A program made the position numbers and the translations under genes. The notes under the pieces are model-generated. The model saw only the letters and a list, made by a program, of their open reading frames with translations, did not search any database and was not told the origin of the DNA. A stretch of DNA of 58,856 nt from the IMG/VR virus record IMGVR_UViG_3300030105_003283, positions 1 to 58,856 of that record, one strand, 5' to 3'. Positions within the stretch are counted from its first letter, which is position 1. Each line of letters begins with the position of its first letter. This DNA is from a virus. Shown here in pieces: positions 19,799 to 58,058 of the stretch.

Positions 19799-20815
19799 TT
19801 ATTCCTTATATTTTTCTATGGTTGAATAAAACAAATTATTCCAGTTTTCAGTAAACTGTGTTATGTTATATTTTTCACGTATGGTCTCTTGAGCCTTTTG
19901 TCCCAAGCTGTGCGCCATGTCAGGATCTTCCAGCAGCATTTTCAACATTGATCTTAGGGTCTCGGGATCATTGGACATTAGTCCGTTTTTTCCGTGTTCG
20001 ATTATTTCTGGAATCATACACGTCTCTGTTGAAACTATGGCACAGCCACACGCCATAGCTTCCATCAGCACTGTGGGAACTGGTGAGTGTAGGGACGTGT
20101 TGTAGAATATTCTGGAAGAGTGATATATCTCTCTCAGGTGCTCGATAGACGACGCAGGTTCTGACAATCCGGGGCTTTTTCCAAACACGCGAACGGGTAG
20201 TTCTTGGGTGGTTCCCTTCCACAATTCCCATCCACAACACCAATCTCTATTTGGCCAGTCATTGACCACAGATAAACAGGCGTTGTCTCTCTCCACTTCT
20301 TCGGGCTCCATCCAAAAGTTGCAGTCTATTCCGTGTTCGATATATTCAGCGTTTGACTCATTACAACCCCATGCGTCCCTGTTGAATTCGGATATAAATG
20401 ACCTCTGATCTACCCAAGACGACACCTCCTGAAGCTGCTGTATCTGCAAGGATGTATCTGTTCGTATGTCTGGCAATACGTGATTATGTAGTATAACGGG
20501 CACATTCAGGTCTTGCTTTATTCTCTGAGAAATTGCAAGCCTTTCGCACGGAGTGTGACACAGAACCAAGTCTATGTCAACGTAGGGCGGCGGAACACTA
20601 TCTATCTCAGAATAGTTTTCTGGGATTTCCCCATAGTCCTTATCCCATTTTTTACCATGACTTATTGCATAAAAATTATGTCCAGTTTTACATAGTTGCT
20701 GTTCATATCTTTCATGGGTGCAAAAGGTTAGTATGTTTAGCTTTTCACGAGAGTCTAAAACGTGCTGTCTTCTCATGATGGCCCTTACGGCTTCAGGTGT
20801 TGCTCTACTAGTCAT
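19799..20815 (-). CDS. GT4-family glycosyltransferase
   Basis: GT-B fold, 338 residues. The C-terminal donor domain shows 'YNTSLHSPVPTVLMEAMACG' and 'AIVSTETCMIPEIIEHGKNG', the GT4 'E-x7-E' region, and an ending 'LGQKAQETIREKYNITQFTENW' typical of the family. The N-terminal lobe has 'LNVPVILHNHVLPDI'. It overlaps the next GT4 gene by 8 bases. Donor and acceptor unknown. Confidence 0.8.
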   Translation of the reverse strand: MTSRATPEAVRAIMRRQHVLDSREKLNILTFCTHERYEQQLCKTGHNFYAISHGKKWDKDYGEIPENYSEIDSVPPPYVDIDLVLCHTPCERLAISQRIKQDLNVPVILHNHVLPDIRTDTSLQIQQLQEVSSWVDQRSFISEFNRDAWGCNESNAEYIEHGIDCNFWMEPEEVERDNACLSVVNDWPNRDWCCGWELWKGTTQELPVRVFGKSPGLSEPASSIEHLREIYHSSRIFYNTSLHSPVPTVLMEAMACGCAIVSTETCMIPEIIEHGKNGLMSNDPETLRSMLKMLLEDPDMAHSLGQKAQETIREKYNITQFTENWNNLFYSTIEKYKE

Positions 20816-21890
20816 TCAACAGCTCCTTTAGTTGTTTGCCAACGTTGGCATGGTCGTACCCAGAGGCGTGAACTTTAACCTTCTCACTATCTTCCTGCGA
20901 CTCTTGCGAATTCCACTTTTGATAAGCTTCCCGCATAGCCGAGCATAGTTTTTTGATGTTAATTTCTTGCCATTCACTTCTGGCCGTATCGAGATTCGAT
21001 ATTGTTGAAACAGCGCCCAAGCACGGAACGGAGGAGGATTCGACCGCGGCCCCAATGCAGAAGTCGTCCATTCCCGTGTTGGCGGTGTGGATAACAGGAA
21101 TTCCTAGAGACATTGCCTCTAGGGCCGGAATACAGAACGCCTCTCCCCTGCTAGGCATCACAAAAGAGTGGCACTGACCCAGAACCGATACATAGTCTTT
21201 CTCTTCCAGTCTTCCAGCTATTATGATCTCTTCTCTATATCTACTACGTATCTTTAGGCCAGACTTAACATGTTTTATATAGTCTTGAATTTGCGGCAGC
21301 TCTACCTTTGAGGTTTTTATGAGTAGGTTTACAGGTTCCTGAAAATCAAACTCTAGATGAAAAGCTCGTATGAGAGCCTGTAGATTCTTCCTCTCTATAA
21401 ACTCTCCAATAAATGCAAAATTAAAAGTTGGTAGCATTTCCTCTATTTTGTTTCCACCATTTTCTTTTTGATACTTTGAAATATCTAGTGAGTGTGGTGC
21501 CACCTTAATTGGTATCTTCACGTCGCTATTCTCACAAGAGACTTTAGCGGAGTTACTGGGAACCCACAGCTCATCCATCAGGTTTATATTGTGCTGCCAT
21601 CCGGTATCCTTAAAGTGGCTACTCTCAACAGCCAAAAACCCTATATTCTTATATCTTGAGTCATAGGAATACAGGTGTGGAAGGGTGTGTTGTATACATA
21701 CGTCGCATCCCTTAGTAGAGGCCGATTCCAATATCTTTATTTTGCCGGGATAGTTTTGTTGCTGCGATTCAAACGTTATTGCTCGTGGAACAACATCAAC
21801 TCCGGCACTGTCTAAGGCCAAGATATTATTAATACAGGCATTAGCCCATCCCGTACCATCTCTATAATTTCCTATATAGAGTACTTTCAT
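20808..21890 (-). CDS. GT4-family glycosyltransferase
   Basis: 360 residues with 'MKVLYIGNYRDGTGWANAC' at the N-terminus and the donor-binding domain 'FAFIGEFIERKNLQALIRAF', 'HSFVMPSRGEAFCIPALEAM' and 'GIPVIHTANTGMDDF', the canonical GT4 pattern with both Glu residues. Cytoplasmic. It overlaps its neighbours by one base upstream and 8 downstream, as part of a run of four transferase or methyltransferase genes. Confidence 0.83.
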   Translation of the reverse strand: MKVLYIGNYRDGTGWANACINNILALDSAGVDVVPRAITFESQQQNYPGKIKILESASTKGCDVCIQHTLPHLYSYDSRYKNIGFLAVESSHFKDTGWQHNINLMDELWVPSNSAKVSCENSDVKIPIKVAPHSLDISKYQKENGGNKIEEMLPTFNFAFIGEFIERKNLQALIRAFHLEFDFQEPVNLLIKTSKVELPQIQDYIKHVKSGLKIRSRYREEIIIAGRLEEKDYVSVLGQCHSFVMPSRGEAFCIPALEAMSLGIPVIHTANTGMDDFCIGAAVESSSVPCLGAVSTISNLDTARSEWQEINIKKLCSAMREAYQKWNSQESQEDSEKVKVHASGYDHANVGKQLKELLND

Positions 21891-22462
21891 TATATGTGCC
21901 TCATGTCAATAGTTATCATTCCGTCATTACCAAATCCATGATGTGTCTCGAATTTAATTTTCTTAGACTTTAAGTATTTTACAAGACTGACGGCTTTGCT
22001 TTTTATATCGTCGATCAAGACAACAGATTTTGTGTTTTCTATTTTCTTGAATTGATCCAGCGTTTGCTTGTCTCCTATGTCTCCGTCTGCGCCGTCTAGA
22101 TAATATATATCGTAATCCTCTGAGATGCTCTCTATAGCGTCTCCCAATTCAAGGCTGGTATTATATCCCAGTCTCTCAGCCATAAACGAAGAATTTGCTA
22201 AGTGGTCTAGGTCCACATCGGCAATAGTTAACGATCCTCCAAGCTCTTTTATGTAGGCTCCAAATATTGTGTCGCTCCATCCAGAGCCCCAGCGAAACTG
22301 AGTCTGTAGCGATTCTATTCCCCCTACCTGAAATATTTTTACAGGAGAGCCGTCAAACAGTTCCAAAACATATCGTATAACTGGATCTCTCAGTTTTACA
22401 TCAGTATTCAGTGTTATGTCTGTCTGTCCGGCCAATAAGGCTAAGGCAAAGCTAAAGTCCAT
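21890..22462 (-). CDS. Class I methyltransferase-fold protein
   Basis: About 190 residues. 'VKIFQVGGIESLQTQFRWGSGWSDTIFGA' contains a motif I-like strand-loop. 'GSLTIADVDLDHL' is the ribose-binding strand, and 'DYDIYYLDGADGDIGDKQTL' matches the Methyltransf_24 'yiDG' motif. I prefer the ATG at 22462, which is 9 bases from an AAGGGG ribosome site; a TTG at 22471 is the alternative. Possibly methylates a product of the adjacent GT4 enzymes. Confidence 0.6.
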   Translation of the reverse strand: MDFSFALALLAGQTDITLNTDVKLRDPVIRYVLELFDGSPVKIFQVGGIESLQTQFRWGSGWSDTIFGAYIKELGGSLTIADVDLDHLANSSFMAERLGYNTSLELGDAIESISEDYDIYYLDGADGDIGDKQTLDQFKKIENTKSVVLIDDIKSKAVSLVKYLKSKKIKFETHHGFGNDGMITIDMRHI

Positions 22463-22467
22463 ATCAA

Positions 22468-24108
22468 TCAACCCCTTGGCTTAATGTTGCGTCTTACGTT
22501 TTCCCAGCTGTTTATTTGGTTTCTAAAGTTAACCATCTCATTGCAGGCCTCGTCAAAAGAAAACTGCTTGTTTCCCTGCATTGACTGCTTGTGAGATTCA
22601 TTAAAATAAAAATCCTTATCTACGTTTTCACACCTGTATCCAAAAGTGCAGTCCTTTAAAACCTTTTTCCACAAATAGCTTCCAACCCACTCCGGCTTGT
22701 GTAGTATGTTGGTAAATATAAAGTTTACCTTTTCGATACTCGACTGTAGGTGGGATGGTATGCTTTTGGCTGGCTCAAATATTCTCGGTGGAGACAGCCA
22801 TGTTTCACGAGGGTCTTTAGGCTGCACAGTGCTTAGGTGTTGAGCCCAAACATCTGCGGCCTTATCCCAGCTATAATGATCTATGGCTCTCTTGCGAACG
22901 TCTGCACCAATTTGTGGTATTTTGTCTTTTTTTGAATGAAGGTCTATCAACTTAGAAACAAAGTTGTCGTTGTCTGGAATAGCTCTGTTGCATCCGGTTT
23001 CACATTCCAAGTAATAGGACAGAGGCTCTAGTGGCACGCCGCCAATGTTGTCGATAACAGATTCCATAGCGGAGTAGTAAGTAGACATGACCGGAACTCC
23101 GCAATGGGCCGCTTCTAGCTGAGGCATTCCGAAACCTTCACTATTGGCATATTGTACATATATGTCAAACATGTTGTATATTTTAGATAGGTCTTGCTCG
23201 CTAATGCTATTGCTAATGCCAACCAAGATGCTTGAGAAATTTCCACAATGAGAACATGACTGCATCGTGTCTTGAAAGAAGTTTACAGATATATCTTGAC
23301 AACTTTTACACTTATATGTGAATAGCGCCCTGCTTGATAAGCCATAACGATCTAGAAGTCTAGGTATGTCCCAACCAACGTCTGGGTAGTATGTGTGGCA
23401 ATAAAGAAAGCTATTACTGTCTTCGGTGGAGTCTAGGAACTTTCTGAAAGACTTAAACAGGTCTGGGTATAGTTTTCTTTTCTGGTTACGCATAACGGTG
23501 CCAACAATAAAGGCGTCTGGAGAGACGCCCATGTCCATTTTATGTTTGCGTTTGTCATCCACCGGGGAAAACGATTGGCTTGCAGCCGGTGAGGCTATGC
23601 CAACAAAGTTGATGTCGTCGCATTGTTCTAGTAGGGTTTTTTTACCAAACTCAGAATATGCCAATACCGCATCTGCTGAGGCGTAAGTGTTTATCCACTG
23701 AACGTCTTGTGGTTTTGCATCCACCGTTGGCATTATTGCCCAGTGAAAGAAATCACGAAACGGCGATCTTTGCTCAAACTCAATCATCCACCAGTCACGT
23801 ATATCCATTACAACATCCGGCTGAAAATCCAGTAGGACATTGTTAAACGAGTGGTCTCCAAACTGAGCGCTCGCATTGCCGCTGTAAGCCCCGAACAGAC
23901 TATCTTCTGGGAGTGGCTTGTTTGGGTAAACCTTCCACGGGACAGACTTTATCATTGGATTATTAGCGTCAGCGTAACAGGCTAGCTCCGCCACCTCTAG
24001 GTCATCTATTTGATTTAGTCTCGTGAGAACCTCTTTGGTGTATACCGAATATCCAGTAGGTAACCAAGAAGCTTCTGAGCAAAAAAGAACTCTCTTCTTT
24101 CTGTTCAT
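22468..24108 (-). CDS. GT4 glycosyltransferase with inserted zinc-ribbon
   Basis: 546 residues, the longest transferase here. It starts 'KKRVLFCSEASWLPTGYSVY'; the donor domain is 'MFDIYVQYANSEGFGMPQLEAAHCG' (in two parts) with 'VPVMSTYYSAMESVI'. Between the two lobes is a CxxC...CxxC insertion ('KCKSCQD' and 'CSHCGN', about residues 275-300) that should bind zinc. After the GT domain an extra helical tail of about 140 residues follows. The zinc ribbon is unusual for GT4 and may serve binding or assembly. It ends next to the SSB gene start region, marking the edge of the glycan island. Confidence 0.78.
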   Translation of the reverse strand: MNRKKRVLFCSEASWLPTGYSVYTKEVLTRLNQIDDLEVAELACYADANNPMIKSVPWKVYPNKPLPEDSLFGAYSGNASAQFGDHSFNNVLLDFQPDVVMDIRDWWMIEFEQRSPFRDFFHWAIMPTVDAKPQDVQWINTYASADAVLAYSEFGKKTLLEQCDDINFVGIASPAASQSFSPVDDKRKHKMDMGVSPDAFIVGTVMRNQKRKLYPDLFKSFRKFLDSTEDSNSFLYCHTYYPDVGWDIPRLLDRYGLSSRALFTYKCKSCQDISVNFFQDTMQSCSHCGNFSSILVGISNSISEQDLSKIYNMFDIYVQYANSEGFGMPQLEAAHCGVPVMSTYYSAMESVIDNIGGVPLEPLSYYLECETGCNRAIPDNDNFVSKLIDLHSKKDKIPQIGADVRKRAIDHYSWDKAADVWAQHLSTVQPKDPRETWLSPPRIFEPAKSIPSHLQSSIEKVNFIFTNILHKPEWVGSYLWKKVLKDCTFGYRCENVDKDFYFNESHKQSMQGNKQFSFDEACNEMVNFRNQINSWENVRRNIKPRG

Positions 24109-24111
24109 GTT

Positions 24112-24426
24112 TTACTTAGAGCCTTTGTTGGGGAGGATTTTAAAATTGGTAACCCTAAATATCACAGCTTCTGGATCTTTGGATGGTTGGTTTCTAGCTA
24201 TAGCCTCAACCGCCATGATGTCATCCTTGTACGCATACTTTTCAATTGTTTTGGCTGCGCTATCCCAAGCCTCAAATTTCAAAAGATCGGTTCTTCGTTT
24301 TTTAACGCCTCCCTTATCTCTTCTGTATTCCTCTACCTCTAGTGTAAAACCTACGGAAACACTGCTGTGAGATTCCCACAGGGTGGGGTCGTCCGTTAAC
24401 TTTCCCAAAAAATGAGATCTATTCAT
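24112..24426 (-). CDS. ssb: Single-stranded DNA-binding protein (second copy)
   Basis: 104 residues of a single OB-fold: 'NRSHFLGKLTDDPTL', 'VSVGFTLEVEEYRRD', 'RTDLLKFEAWDSAAKTIEKYAYKDDIMAVEAIAR', 'VIFRVTNFKIL' (motifs given in order). This is the SSB pattern without an acidic C-terminal tail. It lies immediately downstream of the C-terminal DNA polymerase gene. A second, longer SSB with an acidic tail is encoded at 57681-58058, so the two probably have different partners or timing. Confidence 0.78.
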   Translation of the reverse strand: MNRSHFLGKLTDDPTLWESHSSVSVGFTLEVEEYRRDKGGVKKRRTDLLKFEAWDSAAKTIEKYAYKDDIMAVEAIARNQPSKDPEAVIFRVTNFKILPNKGSK

Positions 24427-24436
24427 ACGTCACCTT

Positions 24437-25990
24437 TCAAAGCTGAGAAACCTTGTCCACAATAAGGGAAGTGTTTTCTCTTTTAGATATTTCACCGGTC
24501 ATCAAGACGGTGTTTCCTTCAACAAGCACATCCTTATGCTTGCTATAACATTCTGGAAAAACGGTTATAGAATCCAGTTCGCCACTACCGTCCTCCGCAG
24601 TAACGAACGCCATTAACTGGCCCGGATTCTTACCCTTTTTGGTTTTATACAGCCTGATTGTACTAATTTGCGCGGCAAGTCTTGTCTTACCTGTTATAGT
24701 ACCTTTAGCTATCTCCCTGCACAAAGAACTTGCAAAATTTATGTTAAAGGCGTCGGTCTTGCTGCAACTTAGTGAAAAACTTAAATATTCTGTTTCACTT
24801 TGCGCTAAAAATGGTATGTTATCTTTTAGGTCGTGAGGAGGATTGTCTAGTATCTTCTTAATGTCTAGAACTGTTGTTATTCTTCTACTGTTTATTTTTG
24901 TGGTATTTATCATTTGAGATATGCTCTCAGAAAGAGTCTGACCCTTATCAAAACTGTCTGATAAATCCACTATCCCCTGTTGTTCCCTAGACGTTAAGTC
25001 TCTCCAGCTATCGTACTCATATAGCATCTTCTGTCTATCTCTTTTGTTATTTTCTCCATTAAAAGCCCCAACGGATATGAGGGCCGTTACAGACCTTTTG
25101 TTGAGTCTTCCTCTGTGTATAACTTTCGTCAACACGTCCATCCACGAGTAGCCAGATATGTCGTTTTTATCGCATATTTCCTCTATCTTTTTACACTCGT
25201 TTCTACCAACGTGTTTAATGTGATTTAGTCCGAAGTAGATACAGTTTTCTTTTGAAATAAAACTTGTGTGAAGATGGTTTAGTCGCGGAGGATAGACTTC
25301 AATATCTGAAAACTTAGCGTCAACAATCAGCTCTTTCAATTCCCTCTGGGAATCTGGTTTCCTCTCTGAATGATTCAAATACGACACATAGAAAGATATG
25401 GGTCTGTAGAGCTTACAGTACGCGCTCCAATATGCATTAATTGCATACGAGACAGCATGAGATTTGTTAAAAGCGTACCTGTTGGACTTTTCAATCCAAG
25501 AGAAAATTTCTTCAGCGACCTCAGTGCTTACAATAGCCCGTTCTTTAGCTCCCTCTAGGAAGTTCTTCTTGACCTCTTCCATAAGTCCAGCCTTCTTTTT
25601 ACCAATGGCCTTACGTAGGGCGTCAGCCTCCTTCAGGTCGAAACCAGCGAGCCTCTGGGCTATTTTCATGGACTGTTCTTGGTATACAAGAACTCCATAA
25701 GTCTCCGAGAGAGATTCCTTTAAGGCTTCGTCAGGATAAGTCACAGGTTCCTTGTTAGACTTTCTGTCCACATAAACCTGTGTCATGCTTTTTCCATTAG
25801 CATCCTTGGCCTTGAGACAGCCCGGTCGAATCAAACTGATTAGAGCGGCCAACTCTTTGATGCTTCTAGGCCTAACCTGCTTAGACCAGTGTCTACCCAA
25901 GCTTGACTCTAGCTGGAAAACGCCCTTGGTACGTCCGTCGCAAATCAAATCCCAAACATCTTCATCTTCAAAATTATTAATATCAAACAT
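24437..25990 (-). CDS. dnaE: DNA polymerase III alpha subunit, C-terminal half
   Basis: 517 residues that begin exactly where the N-terminal half (27249-28844) leaves off in a normal DnaE. 'GRTKGVFQLESSLGRHW', 'ALISLIRPG', 'VTYPDEALKESLSETYGVLVYQEQ', 'DALRKAIGKKKAGLM' and 'NKSHAVSYAINAYWSAY' are the fingers and thumb-side conserved blocks. A helix-hairpin-helix-like section and a C-terminal OB domain follow ('GSGELDSITVFPECYSKHKDVL'). It lacks the palm aspartates, so it must act with the other polypeptide. There is no intein sequence at its start (it begins MFDINNFEDEDVW). The start overlaps the endonuclease VII-like gene by 8 bases. Confidence 0.9.
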   Translation of the reverse strand: MFDINNFEDEDVWDLICDGRTKGVFQLESSLGRHWSKQVRPRSIKELAALISLIRPGCLKAKDANGKSMTQVYVDRKSNKEPVTYPDEALKESLSETYGVLVYQEQSMKIAQRLAGFDLKEADALRKAIGKKKAGLMEEVKKNFLEGAKERAIVSTEVAEEIFSWIEKSNRYAFNKSHAVSYAINAYWSAYCKLYRPISFYVSYLNHSERKPDSQRELKELIVDAKFSDIEVYPPRLNHLHTSFISKENCIYFGLNHIKHVGRNECKKIEEICDKNDISGYSWMDVLTKVIHRGRLNKRSVTALISVGAFNGENNKRDRQKMLYEYDSWRDLTSREQQGIVDLSDSFDKGQTLSESISQMINTTKINSRRITTVLDIKKILDNPPHDLKDNIPFLAQSETEYLSFSLSCSKTDAFNINFASSLCREIAKGTITGKTRLAAQISTIRLYKTKKGKNPGQLMAFVTAEDGSGELDSITVFPECYSKHKDVLVEGNTVLMTGEISKRENTSLIVDKVSQL

Positions 25991-26345
25991 TATCTTTCCT
26001 CAAATAATCAATTGCTCTCTGTAGCCCGCTAATGTTGTCTCCTAGCTTACCTATTCCTTGATTGCAGTTTCTGCACAACCAGCCCCGAAACTCTCCCGTT
26101 TCGTGATCGTGGTCTAGAACAAAATGGTCTGTTATCTTATAACAACACTGGCAATGCTCAGGTTTTGGTGGAGCGTCTTTTCTTGCTTGGGCTAGCTGCC
26201 TAGAGGCTAGCTTTTCACAAGTCTTACATTCCGATCTTACATATTCGCCACTGGAGGTGTTTTTGTAGAGTCTGCAAACTCGAAAGCTAGATATATGTTT
26301 TTCTCGTTTACACTTAGCGCAAATTTTATACGTACACGTTTCCAT
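25983..26345 (-). CDS. Endonuclease VII-like (HNH/His-Me finger) nuclease
   Basis: About 120 residues. There is an N-terminal zinc knuckle 'CAKCKREKHISSFRV...CKTC', then the His-Me finger core 'FVLDHDHETGEFRGWLCRNCNQGIGKLGDN', quoted here as the DHDHE and CRNCNQGIG motifs of recombination endonuclease VII. It sits between the two halves of the polymerase gene, so it is either a free-standing homing endonuclease that produced the split or a Holliday-junction-type nuclease. The ATG at 26345 has AAAAGG upstream and overlaps the exonuclease gene by 20 bases. Confidence 0.8.
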   Translation of the reverse strand: METCTYKICAKCKREKHISSFRVCRLYKNTSSGEYVRSECKTCEKLASRQLAQARKDAPPKPEHCQCCYKITDHFVLDHDHETGEFRGWLCRNCNQGIGKLGDNISGLQRAIDYLRKDNV

Positions 26346-27021
26346 CTGCAAATGCCTTTTCAAATTTTACTTTTTTCAATAAGCTTCTCTGTAACTTTAG
26401 GAACTTAATCATAAGATTTGCAGTATCCTTAACGTCTTGCAGTGCGTCGTGAGCATTGTCCTTGCTAGACTGATCCATTCCAAAGTAGTCACGCATGTAA
26501 TCCATACTATAGCCCTTGACGTCCTGATTGTTCTCAAACCAACAATATATATGTTGCATGACATCAATTGTAAAAATGGGATTAAAGATTTTTTGCCGAC
26601 CTTTTTTTTCATCAATGGGTCCGTACTGTTGACACATTCGCTCAACGATTGGCATATCAAATCCGTTGATATTGTAACCGGCCGCAATTGGTGCGTAATA
26701 GGAAGTATGCTTCCAGTTGTATTTATCACAAAACCCTGCAAACTTTTTCCACACTGTTTTAGGAAGGGGAGCCTTGGCAAGCTCTTTTCTAGTCTTTCTT
26801 GTTATCTCTAACGCCTTCTCCTCTAGCGGTCCAACGCCAGCCGCGATAGCTTTGTCGTCATCAATGATTGGTCTAATTTCACTATTGAACATCCCGCCGG
26901 GCTGAATCTCAAGCTTTCTTGCGTGAATAGCCACTGCTGCTATTTGGGTTGGTTGACATGTGTATGGATTCGCTCCACCAGTTTCAAAGTCAAATACAAT
27001 AATATCTCTAAAGTTTGCCAT
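26326..27021 (-). CDS. DnaQ-type 3'-5' exonuclease (DEDDh)
   Basis: 231 residues. Exo I 'VFDFETGGANP' (Asp11, Glu13), Exo II 'AAGYNINGFDMPIVER' and Exo III 'NAHDALQDVKDT' (about 194-205, H-x4-D) complete the DEDDh catalytic set. Placed between the two polymerase halves, it is the probable proofreading subunit. The PHP domain of the polymerase N-half lacks the full metal site, which fits with separate proofreading. Confidence 0.88.
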   Translation of the reverse strand: MANFRDIIVFDFETGGANPYTCQPTQIAAVAIHARKLEIQPGGMFNSEIRPIIDDDKAIAAGVGPLEEKALEITRKTRKELAKAPLPKTVWKKFAGFCDKYNWKHTSYYAPIAAGYNINGFDMPIVERMCQQYGPIDEKKGRQKIFNPIFTIDVMQHIYCWFENNQDVKGYSMDYMRDYFGMDQSSKDNAHDALQDVKDTANLMIKFLKLQRSLLKKVKFEKAFADGNVYV

Positions 27022-27022
27022 T

Positions 27023-27256
27023 TCAATAACCTCTATTTCTAAGTTCCAAAAATTTATTTACCGCGTCATCTATGTTATGGTACGTCTCGTAAATCCTATG
27101 TTTATCAGACCAGACCTGATATCTGGCAGCCCGAACAACAGCCCCACTTGTGTAGTTATTCAGGTTGCATATAGATATACCATTTGATTCTATTGAGCAC
27201 CCAGAAAAGATTACAGACTTGTAGTCTTCTTTTGTTTCCGATGTTTTATTATTCAT
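27023..27256 (-). CDS. Small protein of unknown function
   Basis: 77 residues from the ATG at 27256; a TTG two codons earlier is also open. No recognised domain. The central part 'GISICNLNNYTSGAVVRAARYQVWSDKHRIYETYHNIDDAVNKFLEL' has a strand-strand-helix look like a compact alpha/beta module, similar to small phage proteins with an AP2- or DUF-like fold. It is the first gene after the polymerase N-half, overlapping it by 8 bases. It is not a continuation of the polymerase. Confidence 0.55.
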   Translation of the reverse strand: MNNKTSETKEDYKSVIFSGCSIESNGISICNLNNYTSGAVVRAARYQVWSDKHRIYETYHNIDDAVNKFLELRNRGY

Positions 27257-28844
27257 ATGCAATGTCCATTATTTTACTAAGTAAGTCGATACCAAGAACA
27301 TCAAACTTTACATGTCCCTGAGTTTCAAGAGCCGTCATCTCGAAGGCTACAATAGGGTCTCCGGTCTTGTCTATTGTCATTGGACAGGTATCAGCGAGTA
27401 TGTGTTTAGAAATAATAACCCCCGCAGGATGCTTACCCTGTGATTTGTTCGTGCCTTCTATTTTGATAGCCTGCTCAAACATATGGGCAAGAGATCCTAC
27501 AAGGTTTCCATCTTCGTCTATTGAGCACCAGTTCTTGAGTTCGTCGGGCTCATTTTCCAATGTCCACCTAATAATTGATTTGTCTTCCATGAGCTCAAGC
27601 TGGTCGGAAATAACCGCTTCATCGGGTATGCCTTCTGTTATTGCGTTCATCTCCATAAACGAGACGGCATCATTGATTCTTAACACCTCTTTTAACGCAG
27701 CTCTGCCCTGAAGTCTACCAAACGTTATCATCTGTCCAACCTTATTTGACCCATATTTTTCTTTAATATAGTCAATTACTTCGTCTCTATGTTCGGATGG
27801 AATGTCCATGTCTATATCTGGTAGGGACGTATAGTCTTCTGTGTTTCTTCCCTCGTTATAAAACCGTTCAAAAATTAGGTCATATTCTATGGGATCTACC
27901 TCAGTGACACCAATAAGATACGACACTAAACATCCAGCAGCAGAGCCTCTCCCCGGCCCAGCCAGCCATCCCCTTTCCTTAACACTATTGATGATGTCTT
28001 GAACAATCAGAAAATACCCAGAAAGACTCGCCTTAAATATAACATCAAGCTCCTTTTTAATCCTGTCAAGATATTCTTGCTTCTTATCCGGGTCGGCAAT
28101 CTTGCCCTGTGGAATAAGCCTGCTTTTCCAGCCCTCTCGGCAAAGATTTGTTAGGTGTTCGTCCTCATCAACTCCTTCTGGACATTGAAATTTTGGGAGC
28201 ATGGGTTTGGCTGCTATCTCATAACTCTCGCACATGTCGCAGATTTTGTTTAAGAGTTGGATTTCCTCGTCTGAATCTTTAACCTCATCGGGTTCCGGCA
28301 GGTAGAAATCATCGCTAGTGAAGAACTCTTTGTTTTTCACCTCTTCGCCACTGTTCATTAACGACTGTATCTTGGGCAGTGTTGTCTTCATTCCGGAACA
28401 CAGAAGAACCCTGTGGGCCTCCGCCTCGTCTTTTGTAACGTAGTAGACGCCACGATCTTTGTAGCCGTAAGAGAAATAATTTTTACCAAATGTTTTCTTG
28501 TATCCGGCCTGATGTTCATTCGTTATACATATCAGATTTCCTCTTTTGGCAAGATCCTGAAACAACGCAAGGCCACCATGCGACACTATTTTAATCAGGT
28601 CAAACCAGCCGTCCTTATTCTTTGCTATAAGGAGGTGTGTCCCAAAATCACAACCCAAGATAGGCTTGACGCCATGCTTGTGACAGGACTCGTGAAAATT
28701 TACAGCTCCAGACAGGCACTCCATGTCAGTAATCACACAGGCGCGATATCCGTACTCCTTACACTTCGCAGCAAGTTTATCACACTTTGAAAACGCTTTT
28801 AACAGACTAAAGTGTGTCTTGCAGTTAAATGGTATCCATTTCAT
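27249..28844 (-). CDS. dnaE: DNA polymerase III alpha subunit, N-terminal half
   Basis: 531 residues holding the PHP domain (1-about 210) and the palm. 'WLAGPGRGSAAGCLVSYLIG' (about 293-312), 'LPDIDMDIP' with Asp345/Asp347, 'KHPAGVIIS' and 'HVKFDVLGIDLL' with the third catalytic Asp515 are all present. It then stops right after this last palm motif, where a normal DnaE would continue. In the PHP domain the usual 'TDH' reads 'TDM' and the HxH opening reads 'KTHFS', so its metal site is probably lost, as in E. coli DnaE. The fingers and C-terminal domains are encoded at 24437-25990. Confidence 0.92.
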   Translation of the reverse strand: MKWIPFNCKTHFSLLKAFSKCDKLAAKCKEYGYRACVITDMECLSGAVNFHESCHKHGVKPILGCDFGTHLLIAKNKDGWFDLIKIVSHGGLALFQDLAKRGNLICITNEHQAGYKKTFGKNYFSYGYKDRGVYYVTKDEAEAHRVLLCSGMKTTLPKIQSLMNSGEEVKNKEFFTSDDFYLPEPDEVKDSDEEIQLLNKICDMCESYEIAAKPMLPKFQCPEGVDEDEHLTNLCREGWKSRLIPQGKIADPDKKQEYLDRIKKELDVIFKASLSGYFLIVQDIINSVKERGWLAGPGRGSAAGCLVSYLIGVTEVDPIEYDLIFERFYNEGRNTEDYTSLPDIDMDIPSEHRDEVIDYIKEKYGSNKVGQMITFGRLQGRAALKEVLRINDAVSFMEMNAITEGIPDEAVISDQLELMEDKSIIRWTLENEPDELKNWCSIDEDGNLVGSLAHMFEQAIKIEGTNKSQGKHPAGVIISKHILADTCPMTIDKTGDPIVAFEMTALETQGHVKFDVLGIDLLSKIMDIAYE

Positions 28845-29739
28845 TCAATGATCTCCTAATCGCTTCAAGTTGTTTTTTGTTTGATTTCAAATTTGTTTTA
28901 GCCACTTCAACTTTTGACTTGAGGTGTTCTGCTAGATTTTGTGGACTGAGAGTGTTATTACAATAGTCGGCAATCTCATATAGAAACTTGCGACACTTTG
29001 GCGTCTGTAAAAAGTTTAGCACCTGACACATGGTTCTGTCTAAGTCTCTCCATTTGGTTTTAAAGTGTGGTGCAGCCTCGTAATACCAAAGGCGAGGAAG
29101 GCTCTCTACGAGGGGAACAGCCCCCATAAGTATTGACTCAAAGAATCTAAACGTCTCATCGCTGTGAGCCCCCTGTGGACACAGAGAGACCCTTGACTCA
29201 GAAAGTATGTCTGCATACTCTTCAGCCGCGAGACCCTGTGAAAAGCCGTCTGTGTACTTTACAAAGAACTTAAACTTACCACTAGACTCAGACTTTTCAG
29301 CCATCTCGTCCAAGTGTCTCTTGAAGCAGTCTCTCGTGCCAGTGTCTGGTATTTGTCCCACAAAAGAAAAGTCGTATTTTCTTTCCGACAAAGGTTTTAC
29401 GATGGTTGGACTAATGTCTCTAAATGTACCAAGAGGAAGAGGGTAGACGAGAGGATTGTGTCTTGGGTATCCCCATTCATCTAGCATAAAGTAGTGTTGG
29501 AATATTAAAAACACATCATTTCTATGAAACTCATTTGGAGTGTCGTGCGTTTCTCTAGAAGTTGCGAACACTATATTTAATTTGTCGTCATTGTATTTTG
29601 GCATATCGCGACCAAGATCATATTTCACTATAATCCTGTACTCATCGCTCAGTAGAAATGCCAGCCTTTTCACCACCTCTAGCGTAAAGCCATTTCCTAA
29701 ATGAAACTCTTTATTTAAATCTACTACTTCTGCGGACAT
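28825..29739 (-). CDS. Exostosin/GT47-like glycosyltransferase
   Basis: 304 residues with 'YDFSFVGQIPDTGTRDCF', 'SESRVSLCPQGAHSDETFRF' and 'FESILMGAVPLVESLPRLWYYEAAPHF' as the exostosin donor motif, parallel to the genes at 10494 and 13481. A basic coiled-coil-like tail follows ('KSKVEVAKTNLKSNKKQLEAI'). It is embedded in the replication module, overlapping the polymerase start by 20 bases and the nuclease gene by 16. Location far from the glycan island is odd and may reflect later insertion. Confidence 0.68.
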   Translation of the reverse strand: MSAEVVDLNKEFHLGNGFTLEVVKRLAFLLSDEYRIIVKYDLGRDMPKYNDDKLNIVFATSRETHDTPNEFHRNDVFLIFQHYFMLDEWGYPRHNPLVYPLPLGTFRDISPTIVKPLSERKYDFSFVGQIPDTGTRDCFKRHLDEMAEKSESSGKFKFFVKYTDGFSQGLAAEEYADILSESRVSLCPQGAHSDETFRFFESILMGAVPLVESLPRLWYYEAAPHFKTKWRDLDRTMCQVLNFLQTPKCRKFLYEIADYCNNTLSPQNLAEHLKSKVEVAKTNLKSNKKQLEAIRRSLNEMDTI

Positions 29740-30224
29740 AAGTCTTCCAATGTTTGAAGTTTTTTAATTTCCATATTGTAACAATCCGCTCTCACATAAA
29801 AGCCGTTGCTGCCATCTTTTTGGCCCTTCTTTAAGAACCTAGCGCCATCAAAATAGTCTTCCTTGGATAGACCTCCAAGAACCCACGCTCTTGTCCATAC
29901 TCGGTTTATATTCTCTATTCTAACAAAAACATAATAGTCACATTTCTGCTTGGTGTTAAACGCGGCGACAGAACATTCGTAGTAGGGTTTTGGCTCGCTG
30001 GTACACCGTTTCGTTTTAACGTCGTATGTAACATCGTCACTTATAATATCATAGTCATATGTGTTGTTTATATCACCTTTAATTATATGATTAGCGACTT
30101 CTTCCCCTAAGAATCCGGCAATATTTCCATCACCCTTTGTAATAGAGTTATTTATTTCGCCCATCTCGCGAGCCTTTCTCCAAGCCCTCTTCTTCATGTC
30201 TTCAGTTATTTTTATTTCAATCAT
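29724..30224 (-). CDS. Putative PD-(D/E)XK nuclease-like protein
   Basis: 166 residues. 'IAGFLGEEVANHIIKG', 'YDYDIISDDVTYDVKTKR' suggests the Glu helix, the Asp and the DxK (here D-V-K) of the restriction-endonuclease fold. 'CDYYVFVRIE' is the usual following strand. Similar small nuclease-like proteins occur beside phage replication genes. ATGA overlap with the RecB-like nuclease gene. Specific role unknown; may process DNA ends or degrade host DNA. Confidence 0.55.
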   Translation of the reverse strand: MIEIKITEDMKKRAWRKAREMGEINNSITKGDGNIAGFLGEEVANHIIKGDINNTYDYDIISDDVTYDVKTKRCTSEPKPYYECSVAAFNTKQKCDYYVFVRIENINRVWTRAWVLGGLSKEDYFDGARFLKKGQKDGSNGFYVRADCYNMEIKKLQTLEDLCPQK

Positions 30225-49640: not shown

Positions 49641-50699
49641 CTAAAGTCCATTGACGATCTCTTTGGCGGAATTATCCCATGAAAAGCGTGTTCCAGTGTT
49701 TGTGCCAGCTTCATTTAATTCTAGGTTATTTTGTTTTTTATCGCTGTGAACCGCCCTCATATGGCAAACCATCTGTTCCTTTTCTGACTCTCCTATGTTT
49801 GCCCATAGTCCACGAGAACCATCAAAGAAAACACCGTCATGAGCCGTTTCTAAATTCTCTATGTCTACTAGAAGCGAGTTCTCGCTGTTGCAAAACTCTG
49901 TATGCGCTGAGTAGTTTGTAGCTATGACCTGTTTTCCACAGGCCATCATCTCAAGAAGCTCTAGGTTCCAACCCTCGGCCCGCGATGGAAATATCCCGCA
50001 GTCAGCCTGCTTCATTACATTATATACGTCTTGGTGTGTTTTCTGTCTTGGAATCATTCTTATCTTATCGCCAAGAGGAGATGACTTGTATAGGTTTTGC
50101 CAGTCTTGATTGCCTTGACCTATAAAGGGATTGTCACACATCATCCATAATTCAACATCATCAGCCTGAGTGAAGGCGCTACTAAAGCACTCAAGCAAAA
50201 CGTCGTGACCTTTTCTTTTTTCCCATTTTCCGCAGTTTAAAAAGACTGTAGGTATTCTGCCAGACTTGACAGGAGTAAATAGTTCCGCATCAACTCCCAG
50301 AGGGACTACATGAACGTCTTGGTCTGAGAACCTATGTGACATCTGGTCTAGAATTATCTGCTTTGCCCATTTTGAGCAGACAAATATTTTATCGCAGTGA
50401 TTGAGGCTGCTCTTTTCTTCATCATTAAATTCAGTGAGTTCAAAGATGGGGAAGCCTATGTGTTTGCCTTTACCGACAAATTCGTATAGATCGTTCTGAT
50501 GCCATATCTTTACACAGTCGTTGCTACTATTGTCACGGCTTCTGTTGTCCAATCCGGATTGTATAGCTGCGTCAACGAACTCTGGTCTTGAAATAGGGTA
50601 TAGGGCGCTGGTGGGATCTAACCCGTATAAGCTTTTAAAAATATTATATCCAGCAACCCCATAACCTAAATTGTTTATGGGAGCAATTAAGTTAATCAT
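49641..50699 (-). CDS. GT4-family glycosyltransferase
   Basis: 352 residues, GT-B. 'KIFVCSKWAKQIILDQM', 'VPLGVDAELFTPVK', 'FLNCGKWEKRKGHDVLLECF' and 'CGIFPSRAEGWNLELLEMMACG' (the GT4 E-x7-E region) are typical of the family. It stands away from the main glycan island, at the end of the export block and before the structured promoter region. Weak hairpins after the stop do not amount to a clear terminator. Donor unknown. Confidence 0.82.
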   Translation of the reverse strand: MINLIAPINNLGYGVAGYNIFKSLYGLDPTSALYPISRPEFVDAAIQSGLDNRSRDNSSNDCVKIWHQNDLYEFVGKGKHIGFPIFELTEFNDEEKSSLNHCDKIFVCSKWAKQIILDQMSHRFSDQDVHVVPLGVDAELFTPVKSGRIPTVFLNCGKWEKRKGHDVLLECFSSAFTQADDVELWMMCDNPFIGQGNQDWQNLYKSSPLGDKIRMIPRQKTHQDVYNVMKQADCGIFPSRAEGWNLELLEMMACGKQVIATNYSAHTEFCNSENSLLVDIENLETAHDGVFFDGSRGLWANIGESEKEQMVCHMRAVHSDKKQNNLELNEAGTNTGTRFSWDNSAKEIVNGL

Positions 50700-57680: not shown

Positions 57681-58058
57681 CTAGAAGGGTTCTTTCTCCG
57701 AGTCTTCAGAGGCGGACACGGCTGAAGCCTTTTTCATATTGGTGGGTTTTACCACCTTTGAAAAACTACTAGGAAGAACGCTGTAGGAAGTCCTACTGTT
57801 TCCATTTTTATCTTCCCAGTCCCGCTGTCGAATTCGACCATCCACAATTACTCGATCACCCTTTTCAAGGCCAACATTTTCGGAATAAGCCGCATGGCTA
57901 CCCCATCCGTCAACATCTAAATAGATGGTTTCCTCTTTGCCGTTTCCGATTGACTCGTTTACGGCGATACGAAATGTAACCAGTTCTTTTTCAGAAATGG
58001 TTTTATATTCGGGATCTTTTGTAAGATTTCCCTTAAGAACAATACGATTATTATACAT
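57681..58058 (-). CDS. ssb: Single-stranded DNA-binding protein
   Basis: 125 residues. 'NRIVLKGNLTKDPEYKTI', 'VTFRIAVNESIGNGKEETIYLDVDGWGSHAAYSENVGLEKGDRVIVDGRIRQRDWEDKNGNSR' (in order of the OB-fold blocks) and an acidic end 'EDSEKEPF' give a full bacterial-type SSB with a short acidic tail for partner binding. Second SSB of the genome, ended by the strong terminator at 57617-57666 and expressed from the 58737-58765 promoter unit. Confidence 0.92.
   Translation of the reverse strand: MYNNRIVLKGNLTKDPEYKTISEKELVTFRIAVNESIGNGKEETIYLDVDGWGSHAAYSENVGLEKGDRVIVDGRIRQRDWEDKNGNSRTSYSVLPSSFSKVVKPTNMKKASAVSASEDSEKEPF

Follow-up and report, generated by a model that had tools for sequence, protein, structure and literature searches.

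The window analyzed here is the whole of IMG/VR virus record IMGVR_UViG_3300030105_003283 (58,856 bases), in which a family C DNA polymerase, of the DNA polymerase III alpha (DnaE) type, is encoded by two separate genes with the gene of a putative 3'-5' proofreading exonuclease lying between them. We propose, with a probability of roughly 0.85, that these two genes, termed here the N-half and the C-half, constitute the replicase of a large uncultured phage clade, and that their products work as a non-covalent two-chain complex.

The two halves share out the domains of the family between them: Pfam identifies PHP and DNA_pol3_alpha in the N-half, and DNA_pol3_finger, HHH_6 and OB in the C-half (Table 1). 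A pol-beta-like palm with three catalytic aspartates (D343, D345 and D515, all in the N-half), the PHP domain, the fingers, the HhH region and the OB domain are all present, and on sequence grounds the polymerase is classed as family C by every domain test except the one-chain state, since none of 140 unique loci encodes it as a single polypeptide. When matched to TIGR00594 (NCBIfam, 1022 positions), the best stretch of the N-half extends to position 566 and the C-half occupies positions 587-1019; the two pieces together cover the DnaE profile except for about 10-20 linker positions where palm and fingers meet, in agreement with the near-complete coverage claimed in a preliminary description of this DNA. 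Relative to Taq alpha (2hpi/3e0d), the last aligned block of the N-half reaches residue 626 (profile position 521) and the C-half is aligned to residues 649-946 (from its position 7), and only some 6-12 residues of linker are missing once unaligned ends are counted out. In the structural literature, this part of the enzyme is the palm/fingers border. The N-half had been described as ending immediately after the KFDVLG motif; its stop in fact lies 19 residues past the start of this motif. A Foldseek search with an AlphaFold2 (AF2) model of the C-half retrieved polymerase III alpha chains in the PDB (4iqj, E 1.6e-18, TM score 0.33; also 2hpi).

In order to establish how widely this arrangement occurs, IMG/VR was scanned with the window halves and with alignments A1, A5 and A6, the alignment-based viral scans returning the best 80 of about 600 candidates. 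At least 173 distinct N-halves were found. Their stop falls inside the locus in 167 of the 173, and in all 165 in which the motif KFDxLG was found it lies 18-33 residues from the start of that motif. The halves are separate open reading frames (ORFs) in 140 of 140 unique loci containing both, and these loci have the cut position and the gene order in common; the exonuclease gene stands between the halves in every one of them, a small conserved ORF, termed SM, is present in 83, and a homolog of the Endonuclease VII (Endo VII)/HNH-type nuclease gene of the window in 28. The search for other phages with the same split, suggested in the preliminary description, was thus productive, and the base error or misassembly that it feared at 27249 or 25990 is excluded because the same split recurs in 140 loci from many different metagenomes. 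That such an error had joined or broken an intact dnaE was conceivable for a single metagenomic contig, as frameshift pseudo-splits do exist in sequence records (Pbunavirus PA5, compared with the intact gene of MT491204); with 0 fused loci, and with three genes that a base error could not produce, this explanation is vanishingly improbable.

Intact DnaE was met only at about 30% identity. Distant loci in bacterial genomes (~30% identity) are single ORFs in 15 of 15 cases, and no named phage rises above ~31% identity across the whole N-half, those inspected being intact or otherwise explained. No intact relative between ~43% and ~31% identity was found in five viral scans and one genome scan, which were non-exhaustive (best 80 of ~600). 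Candidate precedents among named phages were rejected: the two-ORF polymerase of Pbunavirus PA5 (both ORFs labeled 'DNA polymerase', NC_041902.1 39547-42653) resembles a frameshift of the gene mentioned above; the polymerase fragments of Staphylococcus Sextaecvirus are intein-related and a separate case; and in Bacteroides phage DAC20 a homolog of the exonuclease occurs, but the polymerase is encoded intact elsewhere. In Staphylococcus phage S-CoN_Ph16 (OR354839.1 27866-32828) a family C polymerase is distributed among several ORFs of the annotation, together with Hint and LAGLIDADG pieces. The distant exonuclease homolog of DAC20 (MT074140.1 146301-148625) adjoins a terminase gene, and the intact polymerase, DAC20_249, is unannotated. 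Two of the loci with the split, L031 and L131 (IMGVR_UViG_2825974508), carry an identifier unlike those of metagenomes and may come from an isolate or a single-cell genome.

Cyanobacterial DnaE is encoded by two genes whose products are rejoined by a split intein, and the phage halves might likewise be rejoined by trans-splicing, or by a group I or II intron as in fractured phage genes. No intein sequence was matched anywhere in the window, and no Rfam family was found in it at the gathering threshold, nor at E<=1 within 24100-28900. The tail of 18-33 residues counted from KFDxLG leaves no room for an N-intein, and no intron fits because, in minimal loci, the N-half stop and exonuclease start, and likewise the exonuclease stop and C-half start, overlap or abut. 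These results bear out the original statement that the junction has no intein. A true split intein does occur elsewhere in the family: in three contigs (L055, L089 and L250) a split intein interrupts the C-half once more, at FNK/SHA, with TIGR01445 above its cut-off in L055, which demonstrates that intein detection works. In L055 and L089 the N-part of the intein reads CLSPKT... and its C-part ...TSN/SHA, with a Vsr/DUF559-type endonuclease gene between the parts, an organization that resembles published fractured genes. The FNK/SHA site lies close to the intein position of cyanobacterial DnaE but probably does not coincide with it. The polymerase of these three contigs would consist of three gene pieces, the second break being probably rejoined by trans-splicing and the N/C break not. 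We consider splicing at the N/C break itself to be highly unlikely.

Residue conservation was counted over 185 loci (118 distinct N-halves). The three aspartates of the N-half are invariant, as are Q26, E28, K131, K132, K176 and H178 of the C-half and the catalytic DEDDh residues D11, E13, D122, H191 and D196 of the exonuclease. The metal-binding histidines of the PHP domain are degenerate, with His at position 7 in 5 of 185 loci and at position 41 in 1 of 185, which would fit a need for a separate exonuclease. Where dS (synonymous divergence) could be computed, the ratio of nonsynonymous to synonymous divergence (dN/dS) lies at 0.03-0.05 in the two halves and at 0.015-0.03 in the exonuclease; several of the dS values exceed 1 and are saturated and imprecise. 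These values indicate strong purifying selection on both halves and on the exonuclease. The distances of the N-half and the C-half correlate (r = 0.91, 70 representatives), which shows the joint inheritance of neighbors on one molecule, not contact.

A census of polymerases was taken in the window and 18 related contigs of 61-167 kb. Each of the 19 contigs has exactly one match to PF07733 and one to PF17657, and neither family A (PF00476) nor family B (PF00136) polymerases were found in these contigs, which may be incomplete; the split pair is the only replicase detected in them. Nearby genes encode a primase, a DnaB-like helicase, a UvsX-like recombinase, a single-stranded DNA-binding protein (SSB), a deoxynucleoside monophosphate kinase and a ribonucleotide reductase. 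No PF02767 sliding clamp was found in the 19 contigs, so the clamp is either provided by the host or not recognised. This last result would suit a phage replicated by the host polymerase, with one or both halves non-functional or otherwise employed, for example in repair. Such a use is very unlikely given the invariant catalytic residues and the purifying selection, and given that the halves always occur together, in an operon with an SSB and a proofreading exonuclease and with primase and helicase genes nearby.

The history of the locus was reconstructed on a tree, built by a quick method and with long outgroup branches, that joins 70 representatives to an outgroup of 7 intact rows. The split changes state once on this tree, SM once and the Endo VII gene 11 times. 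The split therefore goes back to a single event in the common ancestor of these phages, and SM was gained or lost once. SM is conserved in the clade of the window only and absent from its sister clade, so that it was rejected as a bridge between the halves on which every member would depend. It has no Pfam or PHROG match; its AF2 model is an alpha/beta structure (predicted local distance difference test score, pLDDT, 78) whose fold has no match in the PDB. Since SM is missing from the sister clade and minimal loci hold the exonuclease gene alone, the latter is the constant element of the gap. In the simplest history, the exonuclease gene would have come to lie within an ancestral dnaE, possibly borne by a mobile gene that is now lost. 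A further reading would make the exonuclease an indispensable third subunit holding palm and PHP to the fingers, giving an N-half/exonuclease/C-half heterotrimer with a site complete only when the proofreader is bound, and with a fourth piece supplied by split-intein ligation in the three contigs described above; we regard this as a tentative and rather unlikely elaboration.

The Endo VII gene had been suggested as a plausible cause of the break. It does lie directly 5' of the C-half in the window, as described, and free-standing nucleases are known to split genes in T4-like phages; insertion of such a gene has been proposed to account for the splits of Aeh1 nrdA/mobE and T4 gene 60/mobA (PMC2988022), and an intact dnaE might have been broken likewise. 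Its distribution does not follow that of the split, as most of the 140 loci are split and free of the nuclease, and as it changes state 11 times to the single change of the split. The window and locus L002 have nearly identical N-halves (dS 0.08), yet their nucleases are only 46% identical; the window and locus L004 have diverged N-halves (dS 2.5), yet their nucleases are 94% identical (dS 0.29). This patchy presence and exchange between phages, independent of the flanking genes, is, on sequence evidence, the pattern expected of a free-standing homing endonuclease. The nuclease gene moreover lies between the exonuclease gene and the C-half, and the boundary of the N-half with the exonuclease gene is a separate junction. 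Nor was a near relative of the clade seen in which dnaE is intact and only the nuclease is missing. The nuclease was accordingly rejected as the maker of the split, a role that is very improbable, and appears instead to be a late visitor.

Other occupants of the junctions include HNH-like nucleases (by motif), FkbM and other methyltransferases, glycosyltransferases and sugar enzymes. Methyltransferase, glycosyltransferase or sugar-enzyme cargo, recognised by Pfam or by eye, lies between the polymerase pieces in L009, L014, L025, L033, L061, L069, L089, L109, L197 and L205, and the polymerase operon is a hot spot for cargo. In the window, glycosyltransferase-like genes flank the replication genes at 20808-24108 (by eye only), 28825-29739 and 49641-50699. 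A small ORF that appears by eye to be the same lies 5' of the N-half in the window (29724-30224) and between the N-half and the exonuclease gene in L188 (7559-8050), a placement that looks like gene shuffling within the operon.

The genes are transcribed in the order N-half, SM, exonuclease, Endo VII nuclease, C-half and SSB (Table 1). The ORFs, including the exonuclease (RNase_T by Pfam), small ORF and nuclease (Endonuclease_7) between the halves, were found where the preliminary description had placed them, and its span of 24437-28844 takes in the polymerase, exonuclease and nuclease genes while omitting the coupled SSB-like gene. For SM and the nuclease, the ATG starts are more likely than the TTG starts given by the ORF finder. 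The N-half and SM overlap by 8 nt, the exonuclease and nuclease genes by 20 nt, and the nuclease gene and C-half by 8 nt; AGGA is situated 7-10 nt 5' of the C-half ATG. These overlaps, and the AGGA, make translational coupling probable, and the N-half, the proofreader and the C-half are probably produced together. A second SSB-like gene (phrog_44) is found at 57681-58058.

Table 1. Genes of the split polymerase operon in the window, and the second break of the C-half in three related contigs.
Feature	Coordinates	Strand	Length	Details
N-half, family C DNA polymerase (PHP + palm + thumb)	28844..27249	minus	531 aa	PF07733 5.9e-70; PF02811 2e-15
SM, small conserved ORF	27256..27023 from ATG	minus	~77 aa	ORF finder start TTG 27262
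DEDDh 3'-5' exonuclease, putative proofreading subunit	27021..26326	minus	231 aa	PF00929 (RNase_T); phrog_192 ('DNA polymerase exonuclease subunit')
Endonuclease VII/HNH-type free-standing nuclease	26345..25983 from ATG	minus	120 aa	PF02945 4.4e-17; ORF finder start TTG 26363
C-half, family C DNA polymerase (fingers + HhH clamp-binding region + OB)	25990..24437	minus	517 aa	PF17657 2.5e-45; PF14579; PF01336
SSB-like gene	24426..24112	minus		Next gene of same operon in most relatives
C-half second break, L055	10931-13787			
C-half second break, L089	6191-9020			
C-half second break, L250	4109-4390 + 5292-5405			Intein parts

We suggest that the enzyme is assembled as follows. The N-half would supply the PHP domain, palm and thumb with all of the catalytic aspartates, and the C-half the fingers, the HhH clamp-binding region and the OB domain, the two chains folding against each other non-covalently at the palm/fingers interface to give an active polymerase; the exonuclease encoded between them may act as its proofreader. 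The split would have arisen in the palm/fingers linker, through an insertion carrying the exonuclease gene, and SM, the Endo VII/HNH nucleases and the sugar and methyltransferase cargo would have entered the junctions later. The preliminary description had implied a two-subunit polymerase, and a natural two-polypeptide family C enzyme, with neither intein nor intron and fixed across a clade, is what we find; the heterodimer is still something we infer. A number of points weigh against the two-chain replicase: the related contigs may be incomplete, which would leave room for a second or unfamiliar polymerase; the single change of the split on the tree depends on 7 distant intact rows on long branches; and in the AF2 model of the lone C-half, made from no more than 25 aligned rows, the HhH and OB regions are confident and the fingers poorly modelled (pLDDT ~40-65 over most of residues 1-230). 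This low confidence may reflect the absent palm or the shallow alignment, and we do not use it as evidence.

Bacteria use family C polymerases as their replicases. The split has been kept through divergence down to ~37-45% identity, and as a natural experiment the clade suggests that palm and fingers can belong to different chains. It offers ready-made halves for structural work and for studies of polymerase/proofreader assembly, a clear case of a split outliving any inserting element, and a split-intein site in DnaE close to that of cyanobacteria. It also carries a warning for annotation, in that two ORFs each labeled 'DNA polymerase' would be the halves of one enzyme.

Split phage polymerases have precedents; no description of this exact arrangement was found in the open literature, and subscription papers may mention it. 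The group 2.2 jumbo phages have a minimal split DNA polymerase III alpha, likewise two standalone proteins, predicted to reconstitute without splicing (Iyer et al., 2021, PMC7824862). Their polymerase is a minimal catalytic core, encoded by genes that are far apart and accompanied by a family B replicase, whereas here the PHP, HhH and OB domains are kept, the genes are adjacent around an exonuclease gene, and the 19 contigs yielded no polymerase of family A or B. Among T4-type phages, gene 43 is split (43A/43B) in T4-like 44RR and Aeromonas phage 25, as are nrdA of Aeh1 and the T4 topoisomerase gene 60 (PMC2988022); these too are phage replication enzymes in two reassembling polypeptides with a free-standing nuclease in or close to the break, but they are family B polymerases or other enzymes, described from a handful of phages, whereas here the split is fixed clade-wide. 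The likeness to cyanobacterial DnaE lies in the two genes, and in the split intein inside the C-half of three contigs; unlike that system, the phage N/C break has no intein and lies in the palm/fingers linker rather than in the FNKSH region. The intact DnaE of Pbunavirus (MT491204) belongs to the same family and has an epsilon-like exonuclease gene adjacent to it; there the polymerase is one polypeptide with the exonuclease gene upstream, while in the clade described here that gene lies inside.

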